Assembly (NCBI GenBank): GCA_001899635.1
Contig: MKVQ01000016.1
Coordinates: 355,454-419,453, forward strand
DNA from: Myxococcales bacterium 68-20
GTDB taxonomy: Bacteria; Myxococcota_A; Polyangia; Polyangiales; Polyangiaceae
Direction of reading: 5' to 3'
DNA: 64,000 bases
A program made the position numbers and the translations under genes. This document shows, piece by piece, positions 29,586 to 48,888 of this stretch (position 1 is its first letter; each line of letters opens with the position of its first letter). The notes beneath the pieces are model-generated. The model worked only from the letters and a program-made list of their open reading frames with translations. It had not been told where the DNA came from and did not search any database.

Positions 29586-30020
29586 TCAGGGGACGGTAAC
29601 CTCCGGAGGGGCGGTCGTCGTGGGGACGAATTCCTTGTAGAGTACATTCGTCGAGGCGTCGCGGACGCGCCACGGATGGGTGACGAACGTCTGCTGCACC
29701 CGCGTCTCGCCCGGACCGAGCACGTGGTAGCCGACCTCCTTGCAGCCGTAGTCGACCCAGAAGAGGCGGACCGAGCGATCGGTGAACGCGTTGCGGAACG
29801 GGAGGTTCACGGCCTGCGAGCTGTTCTGCGAGCAGGTTCCCGAGGGCTGCGCCGTGGGCGCGGGCGCGGGCTGGCCCGAGGTCCCCGATGCTCCGGAGCT
29901 GCCGATGCCCGAGGAGCCCTGGTCCAGATCCGTCGGGTTCGGATCACCTTCGAGACAACCGGTGAGCAGGAGCGACGCGACGAAGATCGTCCAGCACGAG
30001 CGATGACGAGCAGCGAGCAT
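29586..30020 (-). CDS. Lipoprotein with VHL-beta-type domain
   Basis: A 144-residue exported lipoprotein. TIFVASLLLTGC is the signal with acylated Cys22; residues 28-62 are a Ser/Gly/Pro linker. Residues 70-125 resemble the von Hippel-Lindau beta domain: VNLPFRNAFTDRSVRLFWVD, then YHVLGPGETRVQQTFVTHPW and VRDA, with the family's conserved order of Asn/Arg strand, W-D turn, LxPG, and HxW. In animals this domain reads hydroxyproline; in bacteria its ligand is unknown. Cys63 and Cys93 may form a disulfide. The ATG overlaps the stop of the CHAT gene by one base (TGATG), so it is almost certainly made with it. Confidence 0.8.
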   Translation of the reverse strand: MLAARHRSCWTIFVASLLLTGCLEGDPNPTDLDQGSSGIGSSGASGTSGQPAPAPTAQPSGTCSQNSSQAVNLPFRNAFTDRSVRLFWVDYGCKEVGYHVLGPGETRVQQTFVTHPWRVRDASTNVLYKEFVPTTTAPPEVTVP

Positions 30021-33000
30021 CAGAACGTTCCTCCGAGAGAGAACGAGGCGAGCGTCGACACCTGACGCCTCGCGCTCGCACGCGCCTCGTCACCGTCGAG
30101 CGAGACGGTGACGGGCATCTTCAGCTCCTCGAGGCCGGCGCGAAGGACGAAGCCATCGAGGTCGAGCGAAAGCGCCGCGCCCGCGGTCTCCTGGTCGATG
30201 AACCATTTGCCGTACTGCCCGCGGAGACCGATGAACGAGGAGGAGCCCGTGCGGATCCCGAGGAGGGCGATCGCCGGAAGCGTCACGCCGTACGTTCGGG
30301 CGTCGCCGAGGACGAACGTGTTGTACGTCGCTTGCCCGCCGGCGAAGAGCTGGAAACTCGAGCCGCGATAGCCGAGCGCAAGCTCGTATCCACTCCGAAA
30401 GCCGCCGGCCAGGCTTCCTTCGTCGGTGCCGCTCGCGTACTTCGTGCCGTCGCTCGTCCGGAGCCCGGCGAAGAGCGAGAGGAGCAGCTCGTCGTGCAGA
30501 CCGAAGCCGCGGCCGCCTTCGAAGAGGTTCGAGAGGAGTGCGTATTCGAGCTGGAGGCTCACGAGCCCGGCTGCGCGATCGGGCTGATCGCGCAGGTTCG
30601 TGATCGCCATGTAGTGCATGCCGAGGAGCGCGGAGCTCACGAACGCCGGATAGGGGGGCTCGTATTGCGAGGACGACGATCGATCTCTGGCCGGAGGAGC
30701 ATCCCGCGCGACGATCGGCGCCTGGAGATCGAAGCTCATCGGGGACCACTCTCCCGACGGGATGAACGCCGCCCAGAAGTAGGGATGCTGCGTCTCCTTC
30801 TTCCCGAGCATCGCGAGCTGCACCTTGCGGAGGGCGGCGGCGCGGCCGGTCCCGGCCTTGAGGTCGCGGTAGAAGGCGATCATCAGATCGCGCGTCGCCT
30901 CGTCGTCGACCTTCCACAAGCTCATGAGCTGGCTCTCGGAGCCCGCGACGACGAGCGCGCGCCGGAGGCCGTAGACACCTTCGCCCACCTCGGTCTCGCC
31001 CACGCCGGTCTCGCACGCGGAGAGGACGACGAGCCGCGTGCCCTCGAGGTTCATGCTCGACGCCTCGAGCGCGGTGAGGAGCCCCTCTGCGTTCGAGCGC
31101 TGATTCGCGCCGGCGAGGGCGAGGCCCGAGCGGACGAGAGGGTTCGCGGAGCGGGACGGCGGGACGGCGACGGGGTCGCCGGGGTCGTACTCGAGCGAGC
31201 GCGTGTTCGACGGGCCCTGCTCTCGTTCCCGCTTGAGAAAGAACCCGTGCGTCGCCACGTGGAGAACGACGGGGCTCGACACGCCTGCGAGCCGCGCCTT
31301 CGTCGCATCGGCTCGAGTGACGTTCGCCGCCGCGAGGAGGTCGGCGATCGCCTTCGCCTCTGCCGCCGTGCCGGGCAGCGCGGGGAACTTGGCGTTGTCG
31401 AGATCGCCCGCGCTCGCCTTGGCGCTCGGGTCGGCCGCACCGGCTGCGCCGTCGAACGCGGGATCGCCGAACACCATTGCTTGCGTGTTGGCGCGCTTCT
31501 GGGCGCTCGCGGCGGCGATGCGTATGAGATCGCGCCCGCTCGTCACGTAGGTGATCTCGCGGGACTGGACGAGGAACTGTCCCCGCTCGTCCACGAGGGT
31601 CGCGAACGGAACGAGGTTGAGGTCGTCGTCAGGCGAGACGATCAGCCGTGCGTCGCTCGACCGAAGGTGCTTCGCGATCGGCGCGATGACGAGATCGTGG
31701 ACCTGCTTCGCGTGAGGCAGGACGTCTCCATGATCGGCGAGGGCCCAGCGCAACTTGCTCACCGCACGACCGATCGGCAACGCATCACCGAGATCGACCG
31801 CGACCGGCTCACCCGTCTTGTGGAGGACGAACGCGACGAAGCGGACCTCCTTCGTCGCGAACACCGGGCTCGAGGTGTCGCGCGCGTGATAGTAGACGTA
31901 CTCGACGAGCGCGCTGTCGTCCGGGATCGCCGCCTGGACCGCCTCGATCGTGACCGGCTTCGACTGCGCACCGTAGAGCGGGCTCGCCGCCACGAGCTTG
32001 TTGCCGATCTCGTCGTGCTCTGCCTCGAGCTTCGCGAGTAGCGATGCTGGATCGACGCCGGGGACGCCGCCCGCCCCGCGAAGGCCGAGGGCCGCGATCT
32101 GACGGCGAAGCTCGAGCTGCCGTGCAGCAAGCGCCTTGTCCGCAGGCTGGTCGAAGAGCCGAGCGACGCGCGCAGCATCGGCCGACGCATCGAGCGAGCG
32201 CCCCTTTCGCCGGAGGATCGTCTCGAGCGCGAGGCGCACCTGGGCGCGGCCGCCGCCCTCGCCGTTGCCTCCCATCGACAGGAGGTCGTAGGCCTGGCTC
32301 GCAACGAGCCGGAGGTGCGCTCGCTTCTGCGCATCGCCGCTGACGGAGAGGATGCGATCGAGGTATCGCTCCTGCGCGTCGGCGGCCTTCTTCGCTAGCG
32401 CGGTCGCCTCGTCCTTCCTGCCCTCGGCCCATCGGACCTGCGCGAGCTCGTGCGCGGCAGACGCGAGGAGGCCGGGGCTCGTTCCGTACTGCTTCTCGGT
32501 TCGTGCAAACCGGCGCGCGGCGATCTCCCCCGCGAGCTTGGTGTCCTTCTTCGCGAGCGCCGTCCGGATGCACGCCGGCTCGGCCTCCTCCGTCACCGCC
32601 GGCTGGTTCGCGCTGACGGCGATCGAGCACGCGGCCTCTGCCACCGCGTCGCCCTCCGCGTTGCGGAACTGCCCATCGAGCACCCTCGCTAGCTCGTTCG
32701 CGACGCGCACCATCCGCAGCGGGTCGACGGGGCGGAGCCCTTTCACGATCCCCATCGCCTCCCGGAGCGTCGCCTCCCCCGCCGCGAGGTCGCCACTCCC
32801 GGTGAGCAGGCCGGAGAGCGCGAGCAGTCGATCGACGAGCATCCCCGAGGCCGGGCTCGTCTTCCGCGTGATCTCGACGCATCGGCGCTGCGTCGCGAGC
32901 GCCTTCACGACCTCGGCGCGCATGATGTAGTGCGTCGCGAGAAACTCGTACTGATCGGCGACGTCGGCGCTCTCGCCGAGAGACCGCTCCATCTTCGCGA

Positions 33001-33622
33001 TGACGTCTCTGCGAAGCGACTCGCCCTTGGAGAACTGCTGCGAGTGGTCGTAGAGGCTCGCAAGGACTCCCGTCACCAGGAGATAGTTCTTCGGGCTCAC
33101 GTCGCTCTTCTCGACGTCCGGCAGCGCCTGCTCGAGCAGGCTCGCCGCGCCCGTGAAGTCGCCGCGCTTCGTTGCCTCGAGCGCCGCCGCGAGCTTCGGC
33201 ATCGCCTTGTTCAAGCTCGGATCAGCGGCGCGCTCCGGCGGCGGCGTCCACTTCCGGCGCGCGGCCGCCGCACGAGCCTCGACCGCCTCGAGCTTCGCCG
33301 TCTCGCCGAGCGCCTTGTAGAGGTCGAGGAGGATGGCGCGGTTCGACGTCGAGTAGTCGCTGTCCGGTCCGGTGGTCCGCTCGATCTCGCCGAGCGCTTC
33401 GTCGATCATCTGCAGGCCCTCGCGGACCTTCTTCTCCTTGAGCAGCTTCCGGCCTTCGGCGGCCTTCTTCACCGCAGCCTCGGCGGCCGCCATGTCCTCC
33501 GGACGGACGTGGACCGTCTTCTTCTGGGGAGGATCGGCCGCATTCGCGGGAGCGGCGGCCACGGCAGTGAGGAACGCGACGAGCGGCGGCGCGATTCGCG
33601 CGAGGATCGAGCGCTGCCTCAT
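30020..33622 (-). CDS. Exported CHAT protease with outer-membrane barrel-like C-terminus
   Basis: A 1200-residue protein. Residues 1-29 are a signal peptide (LVAFLTAVAAAPANA). Residues 45-470 are helical and TPR-like, with repeated Ala/Leu pairs. A CHAT (caspase-fold, clan CD) domain spans about 560-960 with the catalytic His792 in VVLHVATHGFF and Cys870 in VVLSACETGVGE, and the family ending HPYFWAAFIPSGEW. Residues 990-1200 alternate polar and hydrophobic residues in short strands (GYELALGYRGSSFQLFAGGQ, SFIGLRGQYGKWF) and end in a C-terminal Phe, as outer-membrane beta-barrels do. The ATG at 33622 overlaps the upstream stop (ATGA). It would be an outer-membrane-anchored caspase-like protease; I know no described example of this fusion. 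Substrate and whether the protease faces in or out are open. Confidence 0.85.
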   Translation of the reverse strand: MRQRSILARIAPPLVAFLTAVAAAPANAADPPQKKTVHVRPEDMAAAEAAVKKAAEGRKLLKEKKVREGLQMIDEALGEIERTTGPDSDYSTSNRAILLDLYKALGETAKLEAVEARAAAARRKWTPPPERAADPSLNKAMPKLAAALEATKRGDFTGAASLLEQALPDVEKSDVSPKNYLLVTGVLASLYDHSQQFSKGESLRRDVIAKMERSLGESADVADQYEFLATHYIMRAEVVKALATQRRCVEITRKTSPASGMLVDRLLALSGLLTGSGDLAAGEATLREAMGIVKGLRPVDPLRMVRVANELARVLDGQFRNAEGDAVAEAACSIAVSANQPAVTEEAEPACIRTALAKKDTKLAGEIAARRFARTEKQYGTSPGLLASAAHELAQVRWAEGRKDEATALAKKAADAQERYLDRILSVSGDAQKRAHLRLVASQAYDLLSMGGNGEGGGRAQVRLALETILRRKGRSLDASADAARVARLFDQPADKALAARQLELRRQIAALGLRGAGGVPGVDPASLLAKLEAEHDEIGNKLVAASPLYGAQSKPVTIEAVQAAIPDDSALVEYVYYHARDTSSPVFATKEVRFVAFVLHKTGEPVAVDLGDALPIGRAVSKLRWALADHGDVLPHAKQVHDLVIAPIAKHLRSSDARLIVSPDDDLNLVPFATLVDERGQFLVQSREITYVTSGRDLIRIAAASAQKRANTQAMVFGDPAFDGAAGAADPSAKASAGDLDNAKFPALPGTAAEAKAIADLLAAANVTRADATKARLAGVSSPVVLHVATHGFFLKREREQGPSNTRSLEYDPGDPVAVPPSRSANPLVRSGLALAGANQRSNAEGLLTALEASSMNLEGTRLVVLSACETGVGETEVGEGVYGLRRALVVAGSESQLMSLWKVDDEATRDLMIAFYRDLKAGTGRAAALRKVQLAMLGKKETQHPYFWAAFIPSGEWSPMSFDLQAPIVARDAPPARDRSSSSQYEPPYPAFVSSALLGMHYMAITNLRDQPDRAAGLVSLQLEYALLSNLFEGGRGFGLHDELLLSLFAGLRTSDGTKYASGTDEGSLAGGFRSGYELALGYRGSSFQLFAGGQATYNTFVLGDARTYGVTLPAIALLGIRTGSSSFIGLRGQYGKWFIDQETAGAALSLDLDGFVLRAGLEELKMPVTVSLDGDEARASARRQVSTLASFSLGGTF

Positions 33623-34701
33623 TTGGTGTGCTCGAACGCGAACACCTGGACGATCACCGAGTCGGCCGCCTCGGTCCGGGCGCGGAACGACGCCGGCGCG
33701 ACGGCGGGCGCGCTCTTCGCGTCTCCGTCGTCGAGCTCGAGCCCGCGCGAGCGGATGCAGCGCGTGGGCGCGGCGTCGCCCTCGTCGAGCTCGAGCGCAC
33801 GCGTGCATCCCTTCTGCGTCGACGACTTGTCCTCGGCGCGCGTGACCTGTGCGAGCGCGCCCGAAGGCGCAGCGCCGCCGCCGGCCTTCGCAAGCGCTCC
33901 GTCGAGCGAGACGACAGGATCGAGCGACGCGACCAGATACGCCCGCTCGGTGCCGATGTCCTTGTCGTTCAGCTTGAAGCTCGCGGAGCCGGGCGGGAGC
34001 CGCAGCGTCGTGCCCGCGGCGAGCGGGTTCTTCGTCGCGATCCGCGCGTCGGGGAAGAGGACGTTGACCTTCCCATCGGGGCTCTTCTGGAACAGGTAGA
34101 CGTACGCGCTCTTCGACGGCCGCACGACGAAGGCAACCTTCGTCCCGGTCGGGAGGCTCTCCCCCTGCGCGATCGCCTTCGGCGCGGAGTCGCTCGGTCG
34201 CTGCGCCTCGACGGCGAAGTCGAGCGCGAGCTCGCGGCGCGCCTCGTCGGGGACGAGCTCGGTGTACGCCTTTGCGAGCGCCTTCCGCCGGGCGTCCTCG
34301 TCGGTCGCGCCCTTCACCTCGTCGAGGAGGTCCGGGACCTTGCTCATGCGACGACGCAGGTTCTCGCTCCGCGTCGCGTAGGTGGCCTTGTCGACCACGC
34401 ACTTGTTGTACTCGTCGCACAGCCTTCGCGACTGGGCGGCGTATTGCTCGGTCTCCTTGTCGATCGCGCGGAGGGCGGTCTCCTCGGTCTTCGCGTTCGC
34501 GCCGCCGAGGCCGATCGCGGAGAAACCACCCTCGATCTTCCGCCCGTCGTAGCTGAACTCGCTTTGGCAATCGAGCTGTGGGCGCTCCTCGCCGCCGCAG
34601 GTGGGCGCCGAGCGAGCCTCGGGGGACGGACCGCAGGCTGCCACGATCGAGAGGGATACGGCGACCGAGAGAACGGAGAAGGCACGCGCAGGACGGATCA
34701 T
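33619..34701 (-). CDS. DUF4384-domain lipoprotein
   Basis: A 360-residue lipoprotein, signal LSVAVSLSIVAAC with Cys23. Residues 50-165 are helical and charged with a Cys pair (C95, C101). Residues about 180-260 match DUF4384: GTKVAFVVRPSKSAYVYLFQ, then DGKVNVLFPDARIA, NPLAAGTTLRLPPGSASFKL and YLVAS. DUF4384 proteins are usually found beside peptidases or in envelope stress and secretion loci and read as sensor or adaptor domains; the exact job is unknown. The last 90 residues are low-complexity (two copies of ALELDEGDA/GLELDDGDA). It is the first gene of the three-gene unit and its stop overlaps the start of the CHAT gene, so it is probably a partner of that protease. Confidence 0.85.
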   Translation of the reverse strand: MIRPARAFSVLSVAVSLSIVAACGPSPEARSAPTCGGEERPQLDCQSEFSYDGRKIEGGFSAIGLGGANAKTEETALRAIDKETEQYAAQSRRLCDEYNKCVVDKATYATRSENLRRRMSKVPDLLDEVKGATDEDARRKALAKAYTELVPDEARRELALDFAVEAQRPSDSAPKAIAQGESLPTGTKVAFVVRPSKSAYVYLFQKSPDGKVNVLFPDARIATKNPLAAGTTLRLPPGSASFKLNDKDIGTERAYLVASLDPVVSLDGALAKAGGGAAPSGALAQVTRAEDKSSTQKGCTRALELDEGDAAPTRCIRSRGLELDDGDAKSAPAVAPASFRARTEAADSVIVQVFAFEHTK

Positions 34702-34797: not shown

Positions 34798-36282
34798 TCA
34801 GTCCGGGGCGCACACCGCCCTGCGCGGCGGCGTCGACGGATCGAGGAAGTAGTCCGTGACGATCCCCCGGACGCAGTCACTATGAAGGAGCGCGACGTGA
34901 CCGCCGCCTTCGTAGGTGAGGAGGTGAGAGCCGTTCGCCAGCGCACCGACGAGACGCACGCCGTCTTCGTGGGGCGTGAGCGGATCGTACGTGGCCGCCA
35001 CGACGAGCATGGGCGCGGCCGACGGCGCCGAGATTGCCGGAGCGGGCTCTCGACGGTGAAAGGGCCAGCCCACCGCGAGCGCCCACGGGATCGACGCGCT
35101 GTTCGCCGAGCGTGCTCGCGCTCGAAGGGCGTCGAGCGACGAGCGCAGGTCGGCCATCTTCGTGCCGGGCGCGAAGGGCAGCTCGAGCGCCCCGATGGCG
35201 ATCTGGCCCTGTACGCCGTCGTCGTAGCTTCCGTCGGCGCGCTTGCCGGCGGCGGCATCTGCGCGTGCGTGAAGGGCGCTGCCGTCTCCTGCTTCGGCCT
35301 TCGCGAGGCCCGCGGCGAGCGAGCTCGGCTCGTCCGCGCGAAGCTCTGCAGTGATGGCCAGCGCGGCGTCGGTGCTCGAGAGCGAGCGCGAACCGTCGAC
35401 GAGGATCTCCCCGCGGGAAGCTCGCGCGAGGACGGCGTCGAACGCCTGCGCGACTGCAGCCCCTCCCTCGCCGCCGTGGAACGCGCAGGACGGATCCGCG
35501 CCGCACGTCGTGAAGAAGCGATCGAGCGCGGCGTCGTGGGCCTTCGCGCGAGACTCGATGCGGGCGAGATTGTCCGCCGGCAAGAAGACGGGCGCGTCGA
35601 GCACGAATGCGCCAACGCGATCGGGGAACAGCGTCGCGTAGGTCGCGCCGAGCCAGGTCCCGTGAGAGAGCCCGAGGTAGTCGAGCTTCGACTCACCGAG
35701 GGCCTCGCGAATGCGGTCGAGGTCCCGCGCTGCATTCTCCGTGTGGAGGCTCTCGAGCATCGCATCACCTGCGGAGGCACGGCAGCCTTCCGCGAGCGTT
35801 CTCGCGAGCTGCTCGAGGCGCGGGGCGGCGAGAGGCGTCTCGAGCGTGAGGTCCGCAGCACGCAGCTCGTCGAAGAACGCGTCATCGACGCATGCGAGCG
35901 GCGCGCTCCGTCCGACGCCGCGCCAGTCGAACGCCACCACGTCGTAGCGCTCGAACACACGCGCGAAGGCGAGGCGGAGCATCCCGTACTCGTCGACGAG
36001 ACGATCGACCATCGGTGCCCCCGGGCCACCGGGGTTGACGACGAGCGCTCCGAGGCGCGCCTCGGGATCCCTCGCCGGTGCGCGAATGACCGCGATCGGG
36101 ATCGTCGGTCCGCCTGGCGCCGAGTAGTCGACGGGGACGTTCACCGTCGTGCACTCGAACGTGTCGTGGCAGGGCTTCCACTCGGTCCTGCGTGCCCCAC
36201 TCGCAGCTTCGTCACCGTCGCAGCCCGCAGCGAACGCGAACGCCAACATGGCGACGAGCGCGCTCGTGCTGCGCGTCGCCAT
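34798..36282 (-). CDS. Exported alpha/beta hydrolase, TAP-like aminopeptidase
   Basis: A 494-residue lipoprotein hydrolase (signal AMLAFAFAAGC, Cys21). The layout fits the Streptomyces tripeptidyl-aminopeptidase/proteinase family: VVNPGGPG (81-88) at the oxyanion hole, FDWRGVGRS, the nucleophile elbow GLSHG with Ser206, the probable Asp in ATYDPLTPHEDG, and the His in GGGHVALL within a C-terminal TAP-like domain. It should cleave short peptides from N-termini or related esters or amides outside the cytoplasm. The ATG overlaps the stop of the NarL-type regulator by one base (TGATG), so the two are co-translated, which is unusual for a response regulator. Confidence 0.85.
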   Translation of the reverse strand: MATRSTSALVAMLAFAFAAGCDGDEAASGARRTEWKPCHDTFECTTVNVPVDYSAPGGPTIPIAVIRAPARDPEARLGALVVNPGGPGAPMVDRLVDEYGMLRLAFARVFERYDVVAFDWRGVGRSAPLACVDDAFFDELRAADLTLETPLAAPRLEQLARTLAEGCRASAGDAMLESLHTENAARDLDRIREALGESKLDYLGLSHGTWLGATYATLFPDRVGAFVLDAPVFLPADNLARIESRAKAHDAALDRFFTTCGADPSCAFHGGEGGAAVAQAFDAVLARASRGEILVDGSRSLSSTDAALAITAELRADEPSSLAAGLAKAEAGDGSALHARADAAAGKRADGSYDDGVQGQIAIGALELPFAPGTKMADLRSSLDALRARARSANSASIPWALAVGWPFHRREPAPAISAPSAAPMLVVAATYDPLTPHEDGVRLVGALANGSHLLTYEGGGHVALLHSDCVRGIVTDYFLDPSTPPRRAVCAPD

Positions 36283-45557: not shown

Positions 45558-46169
45558 ATGATGGGCCAGCTCGTGCCAATCAGAGAGCCACGCAAGGCTT
45601 CGGCCGACCGGCTGGAGGATCGCACCGACGAGGAGCTCATGGCCCTCGTGCGCCTCGGGACGCGCGCGGCCTTCCGGGTCCTCGTCGTGCGCCATGCGGA
45701 GAAGGTCGCCGGCTTCTGCGCCCGCGTGACCGGGGTCCGAGCGGCGGCGCCCGAGGTGGCGCAGGAGGTCTGGCTCGCGATCTGGGACACGCGCGATCGC
45801 TGGGAGCCCCGCTCGACGTTCCGGTCGTACCTCTACACGGTGGCCTTCACGCGGGCGCGCAATCACGCTCGCTCGCGCCGTCGGATGGCGGCGGTGTTCT
45901 CCTCCGAGCCGCTCGAGGCGGACGCCGCGGCCGGATCGGGGAAGCTCGAGATCGACCGCCTGCTCGAGCGCGAGCGGCGCGAGCGCGTGTTCAAGGCAGT
46001 GGGGGAGCTGCCCGAGTCGATGCGCGAGGCGGTGATCCTGCGCTTCGTCGATGACCTCTCGTACGAGGAGATGGAAGCGATTCTGGCGGCGAACGCATCG
46101 ACGTTGCGGTCGCGCGTGCACCATGCGCTCGCACGTCTCAAGGAGCGACTCGGAAAGGAACGCCGATGA
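45558..46169 (+). CDS. ECF RNA polymerase sigma factor
   Basis: A 203-residue sigma-70 family protein of ECF size. Region 2 lies at about 35-108 (VAQEVWLAIWDTRDRWEPRS, then FRSYLYTVAFTRARNHARSR) and region 4 at about 145-200 (LPESMREAVILRFVDDLSYE and ASTLRSRVHHALARLKERL); regions 1.1 and 3 are absent. It should direct RNA polymerase to its own promoter and a few others when released by its anti-sigma. It starts with ATG ATG at 45558. Its stop overlaps the next gene (ATGA), whose product has a zinc anti-sigma motif. The third gene encodes an exported caspase. Confidence 0.9.
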   Translation: MMGQLVPIREPRKASADRLEDRTDEELMALVRLGTRAAFRVLVVRHAEKVAGFCARVTGVRAAAPEVAQEVWLAIWDTRDRWEPRSTFRSYLYTVAFTRARNHARSRRRMAAVFSSEPLEADAAAGSGKLEIDRLLERERRERVFKAVGELPESMREAVILRFVDDLSYEEMEAILAANASTLRSRVHHALARLKERLGKERR

Positions 46170-46984
46170 CCTGCCCTCGACACGATGTCCTGATCGCGCT
46201 CGGCGACGGCGAGCTCCCGGAGAGCCAGGCGCGGTCGGTTCGCGCCCACGCCGGCGGATGCACCCGCTGCCAGTCGGAGCTGGCGGAGCTCGACGCGATC
46301 GCCGACGATCTGCGCGCGCCGATGCCTGGCGCGCTCGGTCGGCGGAGCGCGGAGGACTTCGCCGATGAAGTGCTCGCGAAGCTCGACGCACGGAGGACCG
46401 AGCCGCGGGAGAGTCGGATTCCACGGTGGATCGGCCTCCTCGCCGCTGCAGCCGTTCTTCCGCTCGCGGTCACCGCAGCCCATCACCTCGCGCAGGCGCC
46501 GCGCGCCACGAGTGAATGGACCGCACGGGGCGGGTCTAGCGCACCGGCGACGATGCGCACGCTCGTCACGTTCGGGCGTGTGTCGGGGACGACGTTCGAG
46601 CCCCTCGCCGACGGCGCGCGACTCGAAGCCGATGCGCTGCTCGCCGCGGAGATTGGCGGAACCGAGGGCCCGCCGCGGTTCCTGCTCGCGTTCCTCGTCG
46701 ACGGAGCGGGCGAACGTCACTGGATCTACCCGTCGTACGAGCCCGGCGCACCGCCTCCGTCTTCCATCGCGCTGCCGGTCACCGTGACGCCACGCGTCCT
46801 CGGCTCGATGGTGCGCCTCGATCGACCGGCGTCCGGCCGGGCACGGCTCGTCGCGATCGTGCTCCAGCGGAGCGAGAGCGTCGACTACATCGAACAGGCT
46901 CCGCGGGGCGAGCTCTCCTCCGAGCAGCTCGAGGCCCACTATCCGGGCGCCCTCGTCATCACCACCAGCGTGGAGGTCCCTTGA
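46166..46984 (+). CDS. Membrane anti-sigma factor, zinc-binding type
   Basis: A 272-residue single-pass protein. The cytoplasmic part has a zf-HC2/ZAS-type anti-sigma motif (C3, then H28, C32 and C35 in HAGGCTRC). A membrane helix follows at about 88-106. The outer part (about 130-265) has a pattern like DUF4384: a Gly-rich start (FEPLADGARLEADALLAAEI), then FLLAFLVDGAGERHWIYPSY and IALPVTV. By its place and motif it should hold the ECF sigma of the gene just upstream and release it on a signal sensed outside. The caspase gene begins 2 nt after its stop. Confidence 0.85.
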   Translation: MTCPRHDVLIALGDGELPESQARSVRAHAGGCTRCQSELAELDAIADDLRAPMPGALGRRSAEDFADEVLAKLDARRTEPRESRIPRWIGLLAAAAVLPLAVTAAHHLAQAPRATSEWTARGGSSAPATMRTLVTFGRVSGTTFEPLADGARLEADALLAAEIGGTEGPPRFLLAFLVDGAGERHWIYPSYEPGAPPPSSIALPVTVTPRVLGSMVRLDRPASGRARLVAIVLQRSESVDYIEQAPRGELSSEQLEAHYPGALVITTSVEVP

Positions 46985-46986
46985 TT

Positions 46987-48888
46987 ATGCGCCTCGCCAT
47001 GATCACGACTGCCTTCGTCCTCGTGTTCTTCCTGCCGGCGATCGCATGGGCGACGGAGACGCGTCTCGCGATCGTCGTCGGTAACAACGGGAGCTCGACG
47101 CTCGGTCGCGCCGAGCTGCGTTACGCAGACGACGATGCGGCGAAGTACGCCGCGCTCTTCGCCGGGGCGAGCCAGCGCGAAGACGATGTCGAGATCATCG
47201 CGCGGTTCGACGCCGACACTGCGCGCCTCTTCCCGGCACAGGCGAAGAAGGCAGTTATTCCTACCCGCGCAGCCCTCGATGCAGCGGTGGCGCGGACCGC
47301 TGCGAAGGCGCACACCGCCCAGCAGCGCGGCGAACGGGTCGTGTTCACGTTCGTCTTCGCCGGTCACGGCGACGTCGAGAACGGCCGCGGGTTCCTCGAG
47401 CTCGAGGACGGCCGCTTCTTTCGTGAGGACCTCGAGGCCTTGCTTGCTCGGATCCCCGCCGCGCGTGCCCATGTCCTGCTCGACGCCTGCAACTCGGTCT
47501 ACATGCTCGTCGCTCGAAAGCCCGGTGGGACCAAGTTCACGACGCCGGAAGAGATCCAGCGCTCGATGACGGCGCGACTCGCGCACGTCGGGACGTTCGT
47601 TTCGACGAGCGCCGACGCCCAGGTGTACGAGTGGTCCCGGATCGAGAGCGGTGTCTTCTCGCACAGCGTCCGCTCCGGTCTCTCCGGCGCGGCGGATCTC
47701 GACGGCGACGGACGGATTACCTACGGCGAGCTTCGCGCGTTCGTTCGCATCGCTGCCGAAGGTGTCCCGAACGTGCGCTTCCGTCCGCGTCTCTACGCCC
47801 GCGGTCCGGGCGGCCGCGACGACGAGGTCGTGTTCGAGCCCCGCGCCGCCGGTGCAGGCCGAAAAATCGAGCTCGCGCCGGCGGCGGAGCGCCGGGTGAC
47901 GGTTCTCGATTCGAACGAGGTGCCCTTGGTCGACGTGAAGGTCGAGCGTGGATTCGGAACGAACGTCTACGTTCCGGACTTCGGCGGTGGGTCGGGGCGC
48001 CGGACGTTCACGCTCGTCGAGCAGGAGGACGGTCACCCCGAGCAGCGCGCCCTCCTCGAGCCTTCGCCCGACGACGTCCTCACCGTCCGCGCCGAGGCGC
48101 CTGACACACTCGCGGCGCGAGCGGCCGGGCGACCGTTCGACTTGCTCTTCGCCGTCCCGTTCGGTCCGCGCGCGGTCGCAGCACTACCTGCCGAGAAGGC
48201 GGAGGAGGACGTCTACGGCGTGTCGAGCGAGGACCGCCAGCGAATGAAGAGCCTCTTCGACGCCGCCGCCGGAAACAGCCGTGACAAGCGCGTGACCGAG
48301 GGCATCGGTTCTCTTGCGCTCGCCGTGACGGCGATCGGCGTCGGCACGGCGGCGTGGGTGACTCCGTCGACTCCGGACGCGCGGGACACGAAGGACATCG
48401 TGGGCGGCGTCTTCATGGGCCTCGGCGCGCTCGGCCTTCTCGGCTCGACCCAGCTCCTCATGCCGAGCGACATGGAGCAACGGCGTGACGCCTACGTCGC
48501 GTCGCTCAGTGCACGGCCGCACGCGATCGATCTCGCGGTGCGCGACGCCGAACGCGAGCTCCTCGAATGCGCCGTCGTCGCGCGGAGAGAGCGCATCACC
48601 GAGGGTGTGATGAGCTTCGTCCTCGGCGCGCTCGAGATCGGCGGCGGGCTCACGCTCGCACTGACGACGGACGACTCCAGCCTCCAGTGGCTCGCCGGCG
48701 GGCTCATGGCCGCCGGCGTAGGGTCCGGCCTCGTCGGCGTAGGCCGTCTCTCCGTCCGCAGCGAGGAGGAGCGCATTGCGGAGCTGTGGCGGACGGAGCG
48801 CGCGCTCTCGCCCTCTCCGCCGCGCACCTCACTCCGACTCACGCCACGCGTGGGCCTCGGCGCCCTCGGGGTCTCCGGGTCGTTCTAA
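46987..48888 (+). CDS. Exported caspase-family (C14) protease with membrane segments
   Basis: A 633-residue protein. A signal peptide (ITTAFVLVFFLPAIAWA) is followed by a caspase/metacaspase p20-like domain: TRLAIVVGNN, RYADDDAAKYAALF, His127 in FVFAGHGDVENG and Cys168 in HVLLDACNS. DLDGDGRITYGE (about 237-248) is an EF-hand-like Ca-binding loop. Residues 300-400 are beta-rich; the C-terminal 220 residues contain about four hydrophobic segments. It is third in a unit with an ECF sigma and its anti-sigma, so its expression or activity is probably tied to an envelope signal. The start used is ATG 46987; a TTG two codons upstream is possible. Substrate unknown. Confidence 0.88.
   Translation: MRLAMITTAFVLVFFLPAIAWATETRLAIVVGNNGSSTLGRAELRYADDDAAKYAALFAGASQREDDVEIIARFDADTARLFPAQAKKAVIPTRAALDAAVARTAAKAHTAQQRGERVVFTFVFAGHGDVENGRGFLELEDGRFFREDLEALLARIPAARAHVLLDACNSVYMLVARKPGGTKFTTPEEIQRSMTARLAHVGTFVSTSADAQVYEWSRIESGVFSHSVRSGLSGAADLDGDGRITYGELRAFVRIAAEGVPNVRFRPRLYARGPGGRDDEVVFEPRAAGAGRKIELAPAAERRVTVLDSNEVPLVDVKVERGFGTNVYVPDFGGGSGRRTFTLVEQEDGHPEQRALLEPSPDDVLTVRAEAPDTLAARAAGRPFDLLFAVPFGPRAVAALPAEKAEEDVYGVSSEDRQRMKSLFDAAAGNSRDKRVTEGIGSLALAVTAIGVGTAAWVTPSTPDARDTKDIVGGVFMGLGALGLLGSTQLLMPSDMEQRRDAYVASLSARPHAIDLAVRDAERELLECAVVARRERITEGVMSFVLGALEIGGGLTLALTTDDSSLQWLAGGLMAAGVGSGLVGVGRLSVRSEEERIAELWRTERALSPSPPRTSLRLTPRVGLGALGVSGSF

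Follow-up and report, generated by a model that had tools for sequence, protein, structure and literature searches.

Separase is controlled by its regulator securin and has cohesin as its substrate, and the characterised CHAT and separase proteases that we know of act inside cells. Csx29 is one of these (PMC10028731); the report on it describes a pseudo-caspase/caspase layout, Cas7-11 and RNA as partners, and a change in the TPR domain that repositions the catalytic residues and so activates the protease (PMC10028731). Proteins of the MYXO-CTERM type have a tail in which a Cys motif is combined with a hydrophobic segment and an Arg-rich end, and are described as being sorted by myxosortase (PMC11980579). 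Among other caspase-fold enzymes, possible extracellular roles have been proposed for some prokaryotic metacaspases (PMC3501461), and DUF4384 has been described as an accessory domain of metacaspase proteases (PMC7475262). Here, we analyze a stretch of 64,000 nucleotides (the window) of Myxococcales bacterium 68-20, contig MKVQ01000016.1, which encodes a CHAT protein of 1200 residues (P0001) with a signal-peptide-like start and a C-terminal domain modelled as a barrel, together with two putative lipoproteins. We consider it slightly better than an even chance that P0001 is a periplasm-facing, outer-membrane-tethered, regulated protease of the separase/Csx29 kind with lipoprotein partners.

The three genes lie on the minus strand, namely: the gene of a DUF4384 lipoprotein (P0003, 360 aa, 34701-33619; lipobox-like IVAAC by eye), the TPR-CHAT-barrel gene (P0001, 33622-30020; assigned from Pfam CHAT, a full-chain model and substitution rates) and the gene of a VHL-beta lipoprotein (P0002, 144 aa, 30020-29586; lipobox-like LLTGC by eye). 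Both partner families exceed their Pfam cut-offs: PF14326 (DUF4384) matches P0003 with an E value of 1.7e-16 (60.5 bits vs. a cut-off of 27), and PF01847 (VHL beta) matches P0002 with an E value of 1e-10 (41.9 bits vs. 21). The DUF4384 stop and the CHAT start share an ATGA overlap (CCAAATGAGG), and the CHAT stop and the VHL start share a TGATG overlap (TTCTGATGC). The nearest relatives in our search come from two genomes at 78-79% identity, G003 (loci L032, L035 and L004) and G006 (loci L033, L034 and L003; G and L numbers denote genomes and loci throughout). Both overlaps are kept in the two of them, and thus in every one of the three genomes that have a close copy. The source genome itself (11.9 Mb, 52 contigs) has a single CHAT match at E up to 0.001. 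Among the three genomes, the ratio of non-synonymous to synonymous substitution rates (dN/dS) is 0.19-0.32 for the TPR and CHAT parts, 0.30-0.38 for the barrel, 0.26-0.29 for VHL and 0.20-0.29 for DUF4384; in alignment A2, two rows begin off the start ATG, that of L034 one codon upstream and that of L035 two codons downstream. These ratios point to purifying selection on every part except the signal peptide, and the signal-peptide-like region of P0001 evolves fast in the same comparison.

P0001 starts with MRQRSILARIAPPLVAFLTAVAAAPANA-ADP, which by eye resembles a signal peptide (residues 1-28, 33539-33622, minus strand) with a proposed cut after ANA, and the N-termini of its relatives are similar. 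A TPR-like alpha superhelix follows at residues about 40-565 (31928-33505, minus strand) in the full-chain AlphaFold2 model. Pfam gives TPR_NPHP3 at 1e-4, below the cut-off, and in a sequence search of solved structures (E up to 0.1) the TPR part alone matched, with hits to kinesin light chains (1.5e-4 at best) and to two kinesin-light-chain-like proteins of bacteria. The CHAT protease region, at residues about 570-958 (30749-31915, minus strand), is supported by Pfam, alignment, model and Foldseek; PF12770 covers residues 637-958 with an E value of 1.1e-80 (271.7 bits vs. a cut-off of 24). The predicted catalytic pair consists of H792 (31249-31247, minus strand), within VLHVATHGFFL, and C870 (31015-31013, minus strand), within VVLSACETGV. 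Both residues are invariant in 12 of the 12 aligned sequences, i.e. the window's own and 11 relatives of our choosing.

The full-chain model runs from helical repeats through an alpha/beta region (570-958) and a linker to strands from residue 994. When the full chain was compared using Foldseek, human separase took ranks 1-3 (9hn5_A, E 3e-10, template modelling (TM) score 0.25 over the query) and Csx29 rank 4 (8eey_B, E 2.4e-9, TM 0.25 over the query). In the model, P0001 accordingly has a separase-like caspase fold after a helical superhelix, the arrangement of a TPR-CHAT of the Csx29/separase type. NCBIfam, with the Csx29 model and TIGR03901 included, gave no match for P0001 at E up to 1. 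Further down, at rank 11, the full-chain Foldseek comparison has the transmembrane anti-sigma factor DdvA (8rot_A, E 2e-8, TM 0.19), a match that probably runs via the helical repeats.

The C-terminal domain (residues about 994-1200, 30023-30643, minus strand) is predicted to be an antiparallel barrel of the outer-membrane type with at least eight strands. In the AlphaFold2 model of residues 960-1200 (predicted local distance difference test (pLDDT) 71.6, predicted TM score 0.66) we read ten strands, and the last residue is Phe. The top structural matches are pOmpT (Z 18.1, 182 residues, 2.9 A), Pla (Z 16.7), OpcA (Z 16.5) and OmpT (Z 16.1), followed by a Legionella porin (Z 15.7) and a designed transmembrane barrel (Z 14.0); Foldseek alone ranks OpcA first (E 4e-5, TM 0.47). 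OmpT, Pla and OpcA are ten-stranded outer-membrane proteins, and the barrel shares 6-9% identity with them. Six homologous barrel-CHATs and the fragment L069 remain after removal of L037. The latter, a second copy in G033, was first classed as barrel-like by its length and ending, and is now taken to have a different beta-rich tail, with an hhalign probability of 0.3% against the aligned barrels. The chain ends in Phe in the window, G003 and G006 and in Tyr in G117; it ends in Pro in L036, Asp in L045 and Leu in L069, so that the terminal aromatic residue is not kept throughout.

A profile search with the barrel also found other proteins in 15 further Myxococcota genomes among the 377 searched. 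At these loci (L148-L163) the proteins are mostly longer and end in the barrel, and their N-terminal halves look repeat-like by eye; the three that were tested have no CHAT and no Pfam domain above the cut-off. Of the 13 readable barrel frames among the 16 loci (L148 and L161, in the wrong frame, and L155, with a stop inside, were left out), 8 end in Phe. Ten of these genomes were queried for CHAT; nine have matches, always on another contig. Since it ends longer non-CHAT proteins elsewhere in Myxococcota, the barrel appears to be a module with a life of its own that is fused to CHAT here.

A first-pass annotation of this DNA, made from the letters alone, had described the same coordinates, lengths and ATGA/TGATG coupling of three genes, and these are borne out on re-reading the sequence. 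It had also described a CHAT domain with H792 and C870, which the Pfam match and the 12 aligned sequences confirm; a signal peptide, with which our reading by eye agrees; TPR-like helices, which appear in the full-chain model and weakly in Pfam; and a beta-rich C-terminus ending in Phe, now modelled as a ten-stranded barrel with its best Z (16-18) to outer-membrane proteins.

In a search of 183 Polyangiales genomes, PF12770 matched in 77 of them at an E value of 1e-10. Sixty-five matches reach 132 bits or more, and 61 of these were classified as strong CHATs after four fragments (three of G156 and one of G049) had been left out; 20 weaker CHATs, hand-picked among listed matches that score about 82 to 107 bits, served as controls. 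A MYXO-CTERM-like tail, with a Cys motif (RGCAC or RGCGC in most cases), hydrophobic residues and an end rich in Arg, is found in 27 of the 61 strong CHATs and in none of the 20 weaker ones (Fisher p 8e-5), and the same rule is passed by 13 of 371 neighbouring open reading frames (p 1e-16). TIGR03901 matches six of ten tested CHAT tails at E up to 1, three of them above its cut-off, and has 28 matches at E up to 0.01 in the window's genome. P0001 itself has no such tail; it ends in the barrel, and TIGR03901 gives no match. A simple rule finds a signal peptide in 22 of the 27 tailed CHATs; of the other five, L040 and L093 have one by eye, and L050, L051 and one of L083 are short or cut frames. 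The tails lend independent support to an envelope location of CHATs in this order, where the statement of the first-pass annotation that CHAT proteases act in the cytoplasm fails as a rule. Four further CHATs are lipoprotein-like, namely: L053, L058, L061 (by eye) and L101.

In trees of 60 rows (without L053) and 47 rows (without 14 rows that have long branches or cut ends), the beta-tailed CHATs adjoin the MYXO-CTERM-tailed ones or fall among them, with deep branches poorly supported. A single origin of the seven beta-tailed rows (p of the approximately unbiased test 0.451; 18% of bootstrap trees) is neither rejected nor shown by these sequences. Some individual loci stand out. G148 has four CHAT genes within 28 kb (L080 and L083; G148:C1, 3292009-3319791), three of them with MYXO-CTERM-like tails; the His motif was missed in all four, so some of them may be inactive. 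At L044 (3960-9585, minus strand), the frame of a MYXO-CTERM-tailed CHAT overlaps the end of the upstream protein, which has a barrel-like end (GTLGASF) and no Pfam match; this pair is perhaps an anchor and a CHAT as neighbours rather than as a fusion. Downstream of another CHAT, at L047 (10135-10488), lies a short open reading frame that consists of a tandemly repeated unit of about seven residues (EVLDRRQ).

Of the two partners, DUF4384 is the one that accompanies CHAT more widely. Full-length relatives of P0003 (E under 1e-30) occur in 16 of the 183 genomes, each with some CHAT match; the match is strong (150 bits or more) in 15 and a fragment in the sixteenth, G054. At 1e-5, P0003 matches 21 genomes, from which the short, weak matches of G028, G042, G051, G090 and G118 were excluded as not full-length; the CHAT search gave no match in G118 and weak ones in the other four. 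Hypergeometric p values for the co-occurrence, from counts tallied by hand, are 6e-13 (genomes) and 3e-5 (genera) for the order and 6e-10 (genomes) and 6e-4 (genera) for the family alone, all of them too small because the genomes are related and not independent. DUF4384 and CHAT lie on the same stretch in six genomes (G000, G003, G006, G016, G054 and G128). The CHAT of G016 and that of G128 are lipoprotein-like, and the gene of the latter and its DUF4384 gene face each other; G054 has a kinase-like gene between the two, and its CHAT gene is cut by the contig end. At two other loci, L052 and L135, DUF4384 genes adjoin genes that by eye encode Ser/Thr-kinase-like proteins.

Taken together, we favour a periplasmic, outer-membrane-tethered protease, which could work as follows. 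P0001 would be exported through Sec, as its N-terminus suggests, and its C-terminal barrel, given the modelled fold, would insert into the outer membrane. In an even-stranded barrel whose chain ends at the last strand, both termini are periplasmic by the usual rule, which would put the 990 N-terminal residues, and hence the TPR superhelix and the CHAT protease, in the periplasm. By analogy with Csx29, the TPR arm may sense or dock a partner and thereby switch the protease on. The DUF4384 and VHL-beta lipoproteins of the same coupled unit would be expected on the outer membrane, where they might act as activator, brake or substrate presenter. The likely outcome would be a cue-triggered, specific cut of one or a few envelope proteins with no bulk digestion. 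The computation itself yields the order of the domains, the barrel fold as modelled, and the kept catalytic pair and gene overlaps. We infer the protease activity of P0001, its location, its partners and its substrate from sequence, models and analogy.

Several results weigh against this proposal. The full-chain model is the weaker of the two, with a mean pLDDT of 67.1 and values below 50 in the active-site loops and at residues 1144-1200, and the matches to separase and Csx29 have TM scores of 0.2-0.3 over the query and a root-mean-square deviation above 15 A, a loose superposition that is to be expected from a long superhelix and a weak model. The barrel model was built on seven sequences (the window's and six relatives), one of them a fragment, and its pLDDT falls below 50 at model residues 1-34, 100-109 and 219-226. 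DSSP gives 11 strand stretches in it, and the count of ten results from merging 149-155 and 158-165 as one bent strand. Water-soluble barrels match as well, with Z up to 12.4 (2fr2). The first-pass annotation had looked to HMM searches for both CHAT and barrel families; CHAT was found, but at E up to 1 Pfam had no family for the window barrel or for four further beta tails, and the barrel fragment of L069 gave the sole Pfam match, below the cut-off. The simple signal-peptide rule is also passed by 14 of the 20 control CHATs, several of them lipoprotein-like, so that by itself it does not separate the CHAT classes.

The partners, too, vary among genomes. Among the 22 genomes with VHL, it lies beside CHAT in the three close genomes only. 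The distant barrel-CHATs of G002, G033 and G117 are without either partner in the stretches examined; G002 and G033 have a DUF4384 relative on another contig than the barrel-CHAT, and no DUF4384 relative was found in G117 (73% complete; barrel-CHAT) or G011 (barrel fragment). By these sequence comparisons, VHL appears to be a local addition to the unit and DUF4384 to reach further. The three genes that the first-pass annotation had seen coupled thus stand side by side in the three close genomes and not beyond. Its proposal of an envelope-anchored CHAT with two lipoprotein partners is similarly divided: the export-type build, the modelled barrel and the kept neighbours speak for it, and the confinement of the unit to three close genomes weakens it.

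The main rival, because the MYXO-CTERM relatives are expected at the surface, is that the TPR-CHAT part is displayed outside the cell with the barrel as a surface anchor, and acts on neighbours, matrix or prey. Many of the nearest barrel-less relatives carry MYXO-CTERM-like tails, and the cell surface is where proteins of the MYXO-CTERM type have been reported (PMC11980579); if kept from these relatives, the surface would be the site of action. The topology speaks otherwise, with ten modelled strands and the chain end at the last strand. Moreover, the gaps between strands sum to 42 residues on the would-be outer side vs. 20 on the other, and the model has no helix in the lumen, though the preceding linker is poorly resolved. 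The first-pass annotation had suggested surface or prey proteins as targets, which finds no support in the predicted periplasmic position of the N-terminal residues, and no result points to prey. We regard surface display as unlikely on balance.

It is quite improbable, in our view, that the CHAT part is a scaffold devoid of protease activity and P0001 a structural repeat protein of the outer membrane. This would fit the occurrence of the same barrel at the end of longer proteins in other Myxococcota (without CHAT in the three on which Pfam was run), as well as a crude motif test, which found the His and Cys motifs together in 48 of the 61 strong CHATs and missed one or the other pattern in 13. 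The 48 include all seven beta-tailed CHATs, however, H792 and C870 do not vary among the aligned sequences, and within P0001 constraint is strongest in the CHAT region (dN/dS 0.19-0.22).

An autotransporter-like arrangement, in which the TPR-CHAT part would cross the outer membrane by way of the barrel before being cut off and released, strikes us as highly improbable. An N-terminal passenger with a C-terminal barrel is the layout of type V secretion, and the barrels of EspP, Hbp, EstA, BrkA and AIDA-I are among the fold matches. The autotransporter barrels among the Z-scored matches reach 8.9, however, vs. 16-18 for OmpT, Pla and OpcA, and the model has ten strands rather than twelve and no lumen helix, though the linker before the barrel is poorly resolved in it.

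That P0001 is an ordinary cytoplasmic CHAT whose signal peptide and beta-rich tail have been over-read is scarcely credible given the barrel model and its fold matches, the barrel homologues elsewhere and the MYXO-CTERM-like tails of relatives, and this despite a small tail-less clade (L041, L042, L081, L088 and L098; Shimodaira-Hasegawa-like approximate likelihood ratio test 99 in the 60-row tree) that has no clear signal peptide and is probably cytoplasmic. Within that clade, the CHAT of L081 (G141:C7) differs by eye from its relatives in having a membrane helix at its N-terminus as well as a CPCGS motif.

Returning to the periplasmic protease that we prefer, its MYXO-CTERM-tailed relatives would be the same kind of enzyme, put at the cell surface by myxosortase. 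More tentatively, and with a little less than even confidence, we propose that Polyangiales harbour an extracytoplasmic branch of the separase/Csx29 proteases with interchangeable anchors (barrel, MYXO-CTERM tag or lipidation), which would cut envelope proteins on cue. This would amount to caspase-like signalling at the cell surface or in the periplasm, in which DUF4384 and VHL-beta lipoproteins would serve as dedicated partners.

On inspection, the genes adjoining P0001 are those of the DUF4384 and VHL lipoproteins and of a TAP-like alpha/beta hydrolase (34798-36282, minus strand), a lipoprotein by eye, which lies 96 bases upstream of the DUF4384 gene and matches Pfam Abhydrolase_1 (5e-22) and Abhydrolase_4 (2e-19). 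By eye, a look-alike of the hydrolase stands upstream in G003 (L035), and none directly upstream in G006 (L034); whether it is a fourth member of the gene unit is uncertain. PADLOC gave no match at E up to 0.1 for P0001, P0002 or P0003, and a defence system was set aside.

The window holds a second caspase-fold unit (45558-48888, plus strand) of three genes with a four-base overlap at each junction, which encode a sigma-factor-like protein (45558-46169, by eye), an anti-sigma-like protein with a membrane helix (46166-46984, weak zf-HC2 match) and an exported-looking Peptidase_C14 protein (46981-48888, with a weak EF-hand match). Sigma factors have been described in four Myxococcus metacaspase operons (PMC3501461). 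The anti-sigma-like protein was considered as a look-alike of the DUF4384 lipoprotein and rejected, having no meaningful BLASTP similarity to it and no Pfam DUF4384 match.

The CHAT family is known; its place and anchor here are the new part. Among the matches listed in a literature search by title and start of abstract, no outer-membrane or MYXO-CTERM CHAT was found, which is weak evidence of novelty with subscription journals mostly outside the scope, and the words ‘CHAT’ and ‘caspase’ are absent from the main text of the myxosortase paper (PMC11980579). Across many genomes of a single order, the same regulated protease core comes with anchors for the outer membrane and the surface. Whether caspase-fold proteases of multicellular bacteria play an extracytoplasmic role can thereby be put to the test: the partner lipoproteins are defined and can be knocked out, and a sister group that depends on myxosortase is available for comparison.

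Among known systems, the target of a Thiohalocapsa diversity-generating retroelement (DGR 2) likewise has a CHAT domain, as its effector, in a multicellular bacterium, but is predicted to be cytoplasmic (PMC10907252). Prokaryotic metacaspases and orthocaspases with DUF4384 or signal peptides are caspase-fold proteases that are possibly extracellular (PMC3501461); they are not CHATs, and DUF4384, where present, is an accessory domain of the protease (PMC7475262), whereas here it is a separate lipoprotein. The likeness to OmpT/Pla and OpcA concerns the fold of the C-terminal domain only, as compared by structure, and we claim neither omptin activity nor adhesion. MYXO-CTERM surface proteins such as TraA share their tail with many of the strong CHATs, next to or among which the barrel-CHATs fall in the trees, and P0001 has the barrel in place of that tail. 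With eukaryotic separase, P0001 shares a helical superhelix and a caspase-fold protease, in another cellular place and with no counterpart of securin or cohesin seen here. Csx29 likewise combines a TPR superhelix with a separase-like CHAT protease and its His-Cys pair, but works with Cas7-11 and RNA (PMC10028731), whereas P0001 adds a signal-peptide-like start and a barrel to the same core.

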